Source: Betaproteobacteria bacterium
Lineage (GTDB): Bacteria; Pseudomonadota; Gammaproteobacteria; Burkholderiales; Burkholderiaceae_A
Direction of reading: 5' to 3'
Length of the DNA: 64,000 nucleotides
Assembly (NCBI GenBank): GCA_016868255.1
Contig: VGHN01000002.1
Coordinates: 87,992 to 151,991 of the forward strand
This document shows positions 36,155 through 42,835 of the stretch, one piece after another; positions within the stretch are counted from its first letter, which is position 1, and the number at the start of each line of letters is the position of its first letter. Below the pieces are notes generated by a model. It saw only the letters and a list, made by a program, of their open reading frames with translations. It was not told where the DNA came from and did no database searches. Made by a program: the position numbers and the translations under genes.

Positions 36155-36184
36155 TTGACCACTCAGGTCTAAGACCTCTATCAT
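36155..36184 (+). promoter_or_regulatory. Candidate sigma70 promoter for the ilvBHC operon
   Basis: TTGACC - 18 nt - TATCAT; spacer contains AGGTCT-A-AGACCT. Confidence 0.6.
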
Positions 36185-36338
36185 TCTCTGCTTGCCGATT
36201 GAAGCGTCGAGGAAGGGCCCACAAGGCTTGCTTGCTCGCCGATCCATCAGCTCCAAGGCCCTGCTTAATGTCTGCGTCTTCCGCGCTCGGAGGGCGCCGG
36301 CGGGTGGGGATCGCTAGAACTGTTTAGGACCGAACAAC

Positions 36339-38054
36339 ATGGAAATGACTGGCGCAGAGATACTCGTGCGCTGCCTTCAGGAAGAGAAGGTGGAGCACCT
36401 ATTTGGCTACCCTGGTGGGGCCGTTCTCTATATCTACGACGAGATATTCAAGCAGGACAAGGTCAAGCACATCCTTGTGCGACATGAGCAGGCGGCTGTT
36501 CATGCGGCCGATGCCTATTCCCGAAGCAGCCTCAAGACCGGGGTCTGCATTGTCACCAGTGGTCCGGGACTCACCAATGCCGTCACAGGCATCGCGACTG
36601 CCTATATGGACTCAATCCCAATGGTGATTGTCTCCGGGCAGGTGCCCACCCACGCCATTGGTTTGGACGCCTTTCAAGAGTGCGACACGGTGGGCATCAC
36701 GCGCCCTTGTGTGAAACACAACTTCCTGGTGAAAGATGTGAAGGACTTGGCTGCAACCATGAAGAAGGCCTTTCACATTGCCCAGACCGGTCGTCCCGGC
36801 CCGGTGTTGGTCGATGTCCCCAAGGACGTGACGCGCGACCGGTGCAAGTTTGAGTACCCCAAAGAGATTGCCTTGCGCTCATACAACCCTGTTGTGAAGG
36901 GGCACCTGGGACAAATTAAGAAGGCGGCCCAGATGATCTTGGCCGCCGAGCGCCCCATGGTCTACGCCGGCGGCGGAGTGATTCTCTCGAATGCGTCTGC
37001 CGAGCTGACGGAGTTGGTGGACATGCTGGGCGCACCTTGCACCAACACCTTGATGGGCCTGGGCGCTTACAAGGCATCGGACAAGAAATTTTTGGGCATG
37101 CCGGGTATGCACGGCACCTATGAGTGCAACATGGCCATGCAGCACTGCGACGTGCTCATTGCCGTTGGGGCGCGATTCGATGATCGCGTGATTGGCAATC
37201 CCAAGCACTTTGCCCAGAACCCCCGAAAGATTGTTCACATTGACATCGATCCATCGGTGATCTCAAAGCGCGTGAAGGTCGACCTACCGATCGTGGGCGA
37301 TGTCAGAGAGGTGCTGCGGGATTTGATCGGGCAGCTCAAGGAGCTTCGGTCAGGAAAGGGCGCCGATCCGGCGGCTTACAAGCCGTGGTGGGAGCAGGTT
37401 GAGCAGTGGCGAAGCCTCAACTGCCTGGACTATACAACCAGCAACGAGCTGATCAAGCCTCAGTCTGTTGTCGAAGCCCTCTGGCGCATTACCAAGGGAG
37501 CTGCGTTTGTCACCTCCGACGTGGGACAACACCAGATGTGGGCGGCCCAGTATTACCGGTTCGATAAGCCGCGCCGCTGGATTAATTCCGGTGGCCTGGG
37601 CACCATGGGTGTGGGGCTGCCCTATGCGATGGGGGTCAAGTTTGCGCACCCCGATGCCGAGGTGGTCTGTATCACGGGCGAGGCCTCGATTCAGATGAAT
37701 ATTCAGGAGCTCTCTACCTGCCAGCAATACCGACTCCCCGTGAAGATAGTCAACCTCAACAACCGCTATTTGGGGATGGTTCGCCAGTGGCAGGAGATTG
37801 AGTACGGCAGCCGCTACTCTGAGTCGTACATGGATTCCCTTCCCGATTTCGTCAAGCTCGCCGAGTCCTATGGGCACGTCGGGATGCGAATCGACAAGCC
37901 CGCCGATGTCGAGCCAGCGCTTAAAGAGGCCCTGGCCATGAAAGACCGGCTGGTGTTTCTCGATTTCATTACCGACCAGACAGAGAATGTCTGGCCCATG
38001 GTGCAGACGGGCAAGGGCCTCACCGAGATGTTGCTCGGTGCCGAGGACCTCTAA
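36339..38054 (+). CDS. ilvB: Acetolactate synthase large subunit
   Basis: TGAEILVRCLQEEKVEHLFGYPGGAVLYIYD, TPD-dependent enzyme motifs, GLGTMGVGLPYAMG. Confidence 0.97.
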   Translation: MEMTGAEILVRCLQEEKVEHLFGYPGGAVLYIYDEIFKQDKVKHILVRHEQAAVHAADAYSRSSLKTGVCIVTSGPGLTNAVTGIATAYMDSIPMVIVSGQVPTHAIGLDAFQECDTVGITRPCVKHNFLVKDVKDLAATMKKAFHIAQTGRPGPVLVDVPKDVTRDRCKFEYPKEIALRSYNPVVKGHLGQIKKAAQMILAAERPMVYAGGGVILSNASAELTELVDMLGAPCTNTLMGLGAYKASDKKFLGMPGMHGTYECNMAMQHCDVLIAVGARFDDRVIGNPKHFAQNPRKIVHIDIDPSVISKRVKVDLPIVGDVREVLRDLIGQLKELRSGKGADPAAYKPWWEQVEQWRSLNCLDYTTSNELIKPQSVVEALWRITKGAAFVTSDVGQHQMWAAQYYRFDKPRRWINSGGLGTMGVGLPYAMGVKFAHPDAEVVCITGEASIQMNIQELSTCQQYRLPVKIVNLNNRYLGMVRQWQEIEYGSRYSESYMDSLPDFVKLAESYGHVGMRIDKPADVEPALKEALAMKDRLVFLDFITDQTENVWPMVQTGKGLTEMLLGAEDL

Positions 38055-40356: not shown

Positions 40357-41139
40357 ATGCCAGGCCCCTCGACGCCCCGTCGTCGCAACACCATTTATCT
40401 GCTGCCGAATCTATTTACGACGGCCTGCTTGTTCAGTGGGTTCTACGCCATTGTCATGGCCATGAACAACCAGTTCACCCAGGCGGCGGTGGCCATCTTT
40501 GTGGCCATGGTCCTCGACAGCCTCGATGGCCGAGTCGCCCGTCTGACAAACACCACGTCCGATTTCGGGGCCAACTACGACAGCCTCGCGGATATGGTGT
40601 CCTTTGGGGTTGCCCCCGCCTTGGTGGCCTACGTATGGGCGCTTCAGGGCATGGGCAAACTGGGGTGGTTGGCCGCCTTCATCTACGTCGCGGGCGCGGC
40701 ACTCCGACTCGCCCGTTTTAATACCAACATCCAGGTCGTCGACAAGCGTTTCTTTCAAGGACTTCCGAGTCCCGCCGCAGCAGCAGTGGTTGCGGGCCTG
40801 ATATGGCTCATGACAGACCTGCGGGAGACGCGCCTCATCGATTACAGCGGAAATGACGTGCGCTGGCTGGTGTGGGGAGTGACGGTTTACGCTGGGACGA
40901 CCATGGTGAGCAGCGTGCCTTTCTATAGCTTCAAGGACATCAACCTGCGCCGAAGTGTGCCGTTCATCTTCATCGCGATTGGCGCGCTGGTGCTCGTTCT
41001 GATCTCCCAAGATCCGCCGTCCATGCTTTTTCTGATCGTTGCGGCCTATGCGATTTCAGGCTACGTGTTGTTTTTTTGGCAAAGAGCCAAGGGCAAATCG
41101 GTGGCCTTATTTGTCGAATCGGACAAGAAAGAGCTATAA
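40357..41139 (+). CDS. pssA: CDP-diacylglycerol-serine O-phosphatidyltransferase
   Basis: LPNLFTTACLFSGFYAI; CDP-alcohol phosphotransferase motif DSLDGRVARLTNTTSDFGANYDSLADMVSFG. Confidence 0.95.
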   Translation: MPGPSTPRRRNTIYLLPNLFTTACLFSGFYAIVMAMNNQFTQAAVAIFVAMVLDSLDGRVARLTNTTSDFGANYDSLADMVSFGVAPALVAYVWALQGMGKLGWLAAFIYVAGAALRLARFNTNIQVVDKRFFQGLPSPAAAAVVAGLIWLMTDLRETRLIDYSGNDVRWLVWGVTVYAGTTMVSSVPFYSFKDINLRRSVPFIFIAIGALVLVLISQDPPSMLFLIVAAYAISGYVLFFWQRAKGKSVALFVESDKKEL

Positions 41140-41140
41140 T
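41135..41140 (+). promoter_or_regulatory. Candidate -10 box for the leuA leader transcript
   Basis: TATAAT 8 nt before the leader ATG; weak -35 TTGTCG 18 nt upstream; overlaps pssA TAA stop. Confidence 0.55.
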
Positions 41141-41148
41141 TCCGATCT

Positions 41149-41220
41149 ATGAAGGTTCGTTGCCTCGAGCACCTCTCGCTTCTACTCTCCCTTGGTCGAC
41201 TGCGCCCCGGGCGCTACTGA
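41149..41220 (+). CDS. Candidate leuA leader peptide (23 aa, 7 Leu)
   Basis: ATG AAG GTT CGT TGC CTC GAG CAC CTC TCG CTT CTA CTC TCC CTT GGT CGA CTG CGC CCC GGG CGC TAC TGA = [23 protein letters not shown]. Confidence 0.65.
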
Positions 41221-41302
41221 TCGACCACTTGCCGGCCCTCCGCTCCGGCCAAAGTCCAGCGGAAATACAATCTCAGATAAATCAGCGCATAGGAGGCTTC
41301 CC

Positions 41303-42835
41303 ATGGCCGACCGATTAATTGTTTTCGACACGACGCTTCGCGATGGCGAACAGAGCCCCGGGGCGTCTATGACCAGAGATGAGAAGGTTCGCATCGCGCG
41401 CCAGCTCGAACGCCTCCGAGTGGATGTCATCGAGGCCGGCTTCGCTGCGGCGAGCCCTGGAGACTTTGAAGCCGTTCGGGCGGTGGCCGAGTCGATCAAG
41501 GAGAGCACGGTTTGTTCCCTGGCCCGCGCCACCGAGCAGGACATTCGTCGGGCGGGGGAGGCTGTCGCCCCGGCCAGTCGCAAGCGCATTCACACCTTCA
41601 TTGCGACCAGTCCCATTCACATGGAAAAGAAGCTGCGCATGAATCCCGACCAGGTCGTGGAGGCTGCGATTGCCGCTGTAAAGATGGCCCTCGCCCACAC
41701 CGACGACGTGGAATTCTCCGCGGAGGATGCCGTTCGCTCCGACATTGATTTCCTGGTTCGTGTTTTTGGCGAGGTGATCCGAGCCGGTGCCAAAACGATT
41801 AACGTGCCAGACACCGTTGGCTACAGTGTCCCCGGTCAGTGGGGCGATCGGATGCGGCAGCTCATCGAACGCACTCCAGGCGCCGACCGGGTGGTCTGGT
41901 CCACCCATTGTCACAACGACCTGGGCATGGCCGTGGCCAATTCGCTCTCGGCCGTGCTCGCCGGGGCCCGACAGGTGGAATGCACGATCAATGGCTTGGG
42001 CGAGCGTGCGGGCAATGCCAGCCTTGAAGAGATTGTCATGGCGGTCAAGACCCGAAAAGACGTCTTCGGCTGCGATTCCAACATTGATGCGGCTCAGATC
42101 GTGCCCGCCTCCCGGCTGGTTTCGCAGATCACGGGCTACCCGGTGCAGCCGAACAAGGCCATTGTGGGTGCGAACGCCTTTGCGCACGAGTCTGGCATCC
42201 ACCAAGACGGGGTGCTTAAGCATCGCGAGACCTACGAGATCATGCGGGCCGAAGATGTGGGCTGGACGGCCAATCGAATTGTGCTGGGCAAGCTCTCGGG
42301 TCGAAATGCCTTCCGACAGCGCCTTCAGGCCATTGGTATTGAATTGGAGTCGGAGCAGGCCCTCAACGATGCATTTGCCCGATTCAAGGTGCTGGCAGAT
42401 AAAAAGACCGAGATTTTCGACGAGGACCTCCAGGCGTTGGTCTCCGGGGAGCCCGAGGCCGAGATGGATCGCTTCAGGCTCATCGACCTTGCCCAGTCGT
42501 CGGAAATGGGGGAGAAGCCCGTCTCCAAGGTGGTTTTCTCTGTCCAGGGCCGAGAGGTGACCTCCGAGGCCCAGGGCAATGGCCCTGTTGATGCAACGGT
42601 TCGGGCCATTGAGCAAGAGGTCAAGAGCGGTGCGGAGTTGTTGCTGTTCTCGGTCAACGCGATTACCACCGGAACAGAGTCGCAGGGGGAGGTGACCATG
42701 CGACTCTCGAAGGGGGGGCGTGTGGTCAATGGTGTTGGTGCCGACCCCGATATCGTGGTGGCATCGGCCAAGGCCTATCTGAACGCCTTGAATCGGCTCT
42801 CGACCCAGCCGAGGGTTAACCCGCAACAACCCTAA
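41303..42835 (+). CDS. leuA: 2-isopropylmalate synthase (ORF track opens at 41192, overlapping the leader)
   Basis: [29 protein letters not shown] Shine-Dalgarno upstream; [15 protein letters not shown]-terminal LeuA dimer domain. Confidence 0.97.

Follow-up and report, generated by a model that had tools for sequence, protein, structure and literature searches.

Most of what is known about leader-peptide control in Proteobacteria comes from the gamma and alpha groups, where it works with intrinsic terminators; the enteric leuL leader has both a Shine-Dalgarno sequence and a U-run terminator. In Actinobacteria, the LEU element combines a Leu leader and a pseudoknot, with no clear terminator before leuA (PMC1262725), and the S. 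lividans leader LeuL1, MRFGLLLLSCRGEGL, is leaderless (PMC8079986). A similar-looking leuA leader of Streptomyces coelicolor has been mutated; as reported in PMC1262725, its behavior was not that of a classical attenuator. The trpL attenuator of Sinorhizobium meliloti is also leaderless, its RNA starting with the AUG of the leader (PMC7298713). The cysteine leaders of Mycobacterium carry their regulatory codons near the stop and have no terminator and a C/Y-rich RNA downstream; Rho has been proposed to act there (PMC1262725). As for Betaproteobacteria, start points mapped in Burkholderia cenocepacia document leaderless genes whose −10 box lies immediately before them (PMC4603805), and leaderless mRNAs are documented in Cupriavidus metallidurans (PMC7563307). 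We found no description of a betaproteobacterial leuA leader in the open-access literature; priority is not certain.

The window analyzed here is a stretch of 64,000 nucleotides from a betaproteobacterial genome. Around leuA it carries what we take, naming the genes by product recognition, to be the order ilvB-ilvH-ilvC-psd-pssA-leuA-rpsO-pnp; promoter, leader, RNA helices and leuA all lie on the forward strand. An earlier note on this DNA had proposed a Leu-rich leader between pssA and leuA, and its description is correct to the base: the ORF runs from ATG 41149 to TGA 41220, has seven Leu among 23 residues with CTT CTA CTC in its core, and ends 82 nt before the leuA ATG. The presumed leucine-sensing codons, marked by the in-frame Leu enrichment, form the cluster TCG CTT CTA CTC TCC CTT (41176–41193). 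The leuA gene itself (2-isopropylmalate synthase, 41303–42835) starts at ATG 41303 behind the Shine-Dalgarno sequence AGGAGG (41292–41297). The longer leuA version in the ORF list, starting at TTG 41192, had been suspected of being wrong and finds no support: nearly all relatives align from residues 1–3 of the protein that starts at 41303.

The TATAAT that the note placed over the end of pssA is also where it was said to be, at 41135–41140, overlapping the pssA stop codon (41137–41139) and leaving 8 nt to the leader ATG. Together with TTGTCG (41111–41116), from which it is separated by 18 nt, it forms a predicted sigma-70-type promoter (41111–41140) whose position is conserved; within the larger branched-chain block it would give leuA its own control. 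The approximately 180 nt of intergenic DNA upstream of ilvB (36158–36339) contain a TATCAT box and an inverted stretch rich in GC; inspection by eye revealed no convincing leader there.

The likeness to enteric leuL drawn in the note stands in part. Both have, in front of leuA, a short ORF in which Leu codons cluster, followed by RNA hairpins, but the comparison is too close: unlike enteric leuL, the window has no Shine-Dalgarno sequence for the leader, no U-run terminator, no detected antiterminator pairing and no Rfam match. An Rfam search with the window and 20 relatives returned no relevant family.

We compared leuA upstream regions from relatives in the same order and from 80 other genomes. 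Leaders were defined with their promoter, as an ATG-initiated ORF of 15–50 codons with at least four Leu and a −10 hexamer ending 5–9 nt before the ATG. Such leaders are present in 84 of 166 upstream regions, against 0.95 expected from dinucleotide shuffles. Curation removed six doubtful picks, leaving 80 leaders that span 23 families of the order. In these 80, Leu accounts for 25.2% of codons in frame versus 8.0% and 6.9% in the other two frames, and upstream of the stop-codon hairpin P1 (see below) there is a mild synonymous excess in a small sample (pS 0.30, pN 0.17). Close relatives of the window encode peptides such as MSSSFFIGSPTPLLLPLGRLRLGR and MNVLPLASLLLLLSSLGRLRHGR; in distant relatives the C-terminus reads GLLLRPAR or GLLLRLAR. 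Aromatoleum and Undibacterium are examples of culturable relatives that carry the leader. The general signature of an amino-acid leader is found here: a short ORF, enriched in Leu codons before a leucine-synthesis gene and kept in relatives. One locus of the window's own genus (L005, genome G004) is without a leader; its pssA frame appears to stop only 12 nt before leuA, so the element has probably been lost there. Another locus (L019, G026) has an intrinsic-terminator-like hairpin and T-run between pssA and leuA in place of the Leu leader. In leaders from outside the window's family, for example L030, L057, L144 and L164, an AATTCG(N)GCAGT-type motif recurs after a C-rich stretch behind the leader stop.

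To avoid circularity, we left the promoter out of a second definition, selecting 97 leaders for their Leu content and for a hairpin that covers the stop codon. In this promoter-blind set a −10 hexamer lies 6–9 nt before the ATG in 73 of 97 cases, with other distances represented about once each. A Shine-Dalgarno-like motif precedes one of the 97 leader ATGs versus 81 of the 97 leuA starts. Some members of the set, L019 among them, are pssA tails; these can weaken the peak of −10 distances but not create it, and because of them family counts rest on the promoter-defined 80. A −35 element with at least four of six matches accompanies 35 of those 80 (about 14 expected). Given the spacing and the near-absence of Shine-Dalgarno motifs, leaderless initiation is probably a conserved trait. 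The window follows it: the predicted start point is at the AUG or a few nucleotides from it, with no Shine-Dalgarno sequence, and the leader's start codon is probably also the 5′ end of its message. This is the arrangement of S. meliloti trpL, likewise proteobacterial and with its RNA start, here predicted, at the leader AUG; trpL differs in sensing Trp rather than Leu, in belonging to an alphaproteobacterium and in generating an sRNA by attenuation.

The inverted repeat GCGCC/GGCGC noticed earlier at 41202–41214 is the inner part of a larger hairpin, P1 (41193–41227), whose outer arms UGGUCGA/UCGACCA (41193–41199 and 41221–41227) enclose it, so that P1 covers the 3′ end of the leader together with its stop codon. 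In the window P1 has a predicted energy of −16.6 kcal/mol (z −3.1). A hairpin of at least five pairs over the last codons or the stop is found in 78 of the 80 leaders; shuffling of the last ten codons gives an expectation of 36.8. The peptide ends in LLLRxAR, or LGRLRLGR in the window's family; where the end has changed to ALPAQK, the arms of P1 become UUGCGC/GCGCAA, elsewhere they are GCCC/GGGC, and in L096, L099 and L166 the hairpin has moved across the stop codon. The end of the leader peptide thus appears to be dictated by the RNA of P1. Consensus folding of an overlong MAFFT alignment recovered the P1 core only.

The second repeat of the note, GCCGG-N9-CCGGC at 41231–41249, proved to be half of an interleaved pair. 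We call it helix A (41231–41235 with 41245–41249); helix B (41239–41263) pairs UCCGCU 41239–41244 with AGCGGA 41258–41263, and as a lone hairpin has −9.5 kcal/mol in the window. The window's genus and one sister genus share the order A1-B1-A2-B2 directly behind P1. Loops 1, 2 and 3 measure 3, 0 and 8 nt in the window and mostly 1–4, 0–1 and 6–12 nt, respectively, across both genera. The note had suggested searching related pssA-leuA regions for covarying stems, and in these two genera helices A and B do covary: an alignment of 15 sequences has 91.7% of its cells paired, versus 25–43% when the partners are slid, and 16 cells in four pairs have changed on both sides. None of 500 shuffles reached the covariation score of helices A and B, which were also analyzed with P1 included. 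In geometry the two helices match an H-type pseudoknot, with two competing interleaved hairpins as a possible alternative; for brevity we write pseudoknot. Its distance from the leader stop is 10–14 nt in all sequences while its distance to leuA varies from 39 to 120 nt, which places it relative to the ribosome on the leader rather than to the ribosome site of leuA. One locus (L013, G011) has an extra hairpin, GGGTTTTAGAAACCC, inserted in pseudoknot loop 1 and a T-run after helix B.

We built a covariance model (R1) from P1 and helix A and ran it on 26 genomes of the family and on 300 genomes of the order. It matched in 17 of the 26, always beside leuA except for one weak second match in G010; in the 300 it matched only the window's genus and the sister genus, plus two marginal cases. 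Behind the leaders of other families a pseudoknot is on average no better than in shuffles (−9.5 vs −7.8). The minimum free energy fold of the whole 174-nt region in the window is no more stable than shuffles (z +0.96), so single-sequence folding would miss the element. This pseudoknot, predicted from covariation in the window's genus and its sister genus, is newly described here. The comparison among relatives that the note had proposed as a test supports the Leu-rich leader reading well and shows, at the level of sequence, a conserved Leu-rich frame, tight −10/ATG spacing without a Shine-Dalgarno sequence, the stop-codon hairpin and, in the two genera, interleaved helices A and B.

The nearest described system is the LEU element, with no common descent indicated by a model that was applied to one order. 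Both have a Leu-rich ORF before leuA, leaderless in S. lividans as well; in both, a conserved pseudoknot lies behind the Leu codons and a typical terminator is lacking. Unlike the LEU element, the present one belongs to a different phylum, shows no sequence similarity that we could see, has a hairpin over the leader stop codon, and has its pseudoknot limited to two genera; the stem formed at the base of the LEU element by Leu codons and Shine-Dalgarno sequence is found in a few close relatives, is weak in the window and is not conserved elsewhere. The Mycobacterium cysteine leaders share regulatory codons near the stop, the lack of a terminator and C-rich RNA downstream, and differ in amino acid, phylum and in having no pseudoknot reported.

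We consider it likely that the leader is a leucine-sensing leader peptide that controls leuA, which would probably be switched on at leucine shortage by a non-textbook route. Transcription from the promoter at the end of pssA would start on the leader AUG or no more than about 2 nt from it, and ribosomes would load on the leaderless message. With leucine plentiful, the ribosome would pass the Leu cluster and terminate at the UGA inside P1; with charged tRNA-Leu short, it would stall on CUU CUA CUC, as the codons most naturally suggest. Its position would set whether P1 and the pseudoknot downstream form, and thereby how much transcription or translation reaches leuA, with leuA expected to rise on leucine shortage. 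Four points speak against this reading: P1 and the pseudoknot are able to coexist, and the sequence gives no sign of a switch; no conserved alternative pairing turned up between the leader and the RNA behind it (see below); the S. coelicolor leader, as reported, failed to act as a classical attenuator (PMC1262725); and G004, of the window's genus, lacks the leader. The output step is the least certain. Our first choice is premature termination dependent on Rho or assisted by another factor, and our second translational control. Three features favor the first: the U-run is missing, C is abundant and G scarce in the RNA behind the stop, and the spacing of the pseudoknot is held to the leader stop rather than to the ribosome site of leuA. 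In the promoter-blind set, C makes up 48% and G 8% of the first 10 nt behind the leader stop, as would suit the loading of Rho, and the window's genome has rho. A more specific reading, put forward tentatively and given rather less than an even chance, is that of an independently arisen betaproteobacterial counterpart of the LEU element, in which the ribosome on a leaderless Leu leader would work against the stop-codon hairpin and, 10–14 nt downstream, an H-type pseudoknot, and would control leuA with neither an intrinsic terminator nor a classical antiterminator.

The strongest competitor, though an unlikely one, is translational attenuation like that of the LEU element, where the same logic applies (PMC1262725): the Leu-codon region would pair with the leuA Shine-Dalgarno sequence around P1 and the pseudoknot, and a stalled ribosome would free it. 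In the window's two genera such duplexes are stronger within than between species (p 0.0015, by a permutation that ignores relatedness), and four close relatives have 5–9 contiguous pairs, such as CUUCCCCU:AGGGGAAG. However, the pairing is absent from the other 63 leaders (p 0.60), the duplex in the window (−12.0 kcal/mol) is weaker than average, and the distance to leuA is not conserved.

We give a still smaller chance to classical attenuation by an intrinsic terminator, with helix B as terminator and helix A or an arm of P1 as antiterminator. The two helices interleave, and a T-run follows helix B in two relatives (L010 and L013), but A and B use different bases, so that neither excludes the other. 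The note's observation that there is no U-run holds in the window, and U-runs are missing from most relatives as well: terminator-like structures occur at 15 of 101 loci versus 5.3 expected, and clear intrinsic terminators between leader and leuA are confined to family f31 (L171/L172; G055, G099). There, a canonical CCCCAGC..GCTGGGG stem followed by a T-run stands between a leaderless Leu leader and leuA, and the output mechanism therefore differs between families of one order. Among 48 duplex tests for a conserved alternative pairing between leader and downstream RNA none was convincing; the best z of −3.2 is uncorrected and confounded by relatedness, and for this reason we claim no antiterminator. 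A classical attenuator should show such a pairing, and its absence from these tests counts against one. The note's suspicion that the mechanism departs from intrinsic-terminator attenuation is in line with the missing U-run and the missing conserved antiterminator pairing.

It is improbable that the RNA structures act alone, through protein or metabolite binding or mRNA stability, with the short ORF incidental. P1 is kept even where the peptide end changes, and the mutation results for the S. coelicolor leader are ambiguous (PMC1262725); nonetheless, Leu enrichment is limited to one frame, and across 23 families an ATG is retained at constant spacing from the −10 box. Finally, the idea that the ORF arose by chance in intergenic DNA has its short length in its favor and nothing else, and is refuted by conservation, with 84 leaders where 0.95 are expected, and by the covariation of the downstream helices, so that we give it practically no weight.

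We return to the preferred reading, a leucine-sensing leader that probably acts by a non-textbook route. The present analysis contributes two things: it shows how widely the leaderless leader occurs in the order, and it predicts a pseudoknot specific to one clade. At least 23 betaproteobacterial families have such a Leu leader, which belongs to no Rfam family and in most cases lacks a terminator; a message predicted to start at its AUG suggests selection for leaderless initiation in leader peptides. The parallel in Actinobacteria suggests that the same solution has evolved twice. With a pseudoknot in one clade and true terminators in another family of the order, the way in which a terminator-less Leu leader acts would be testable in culturable hosts.
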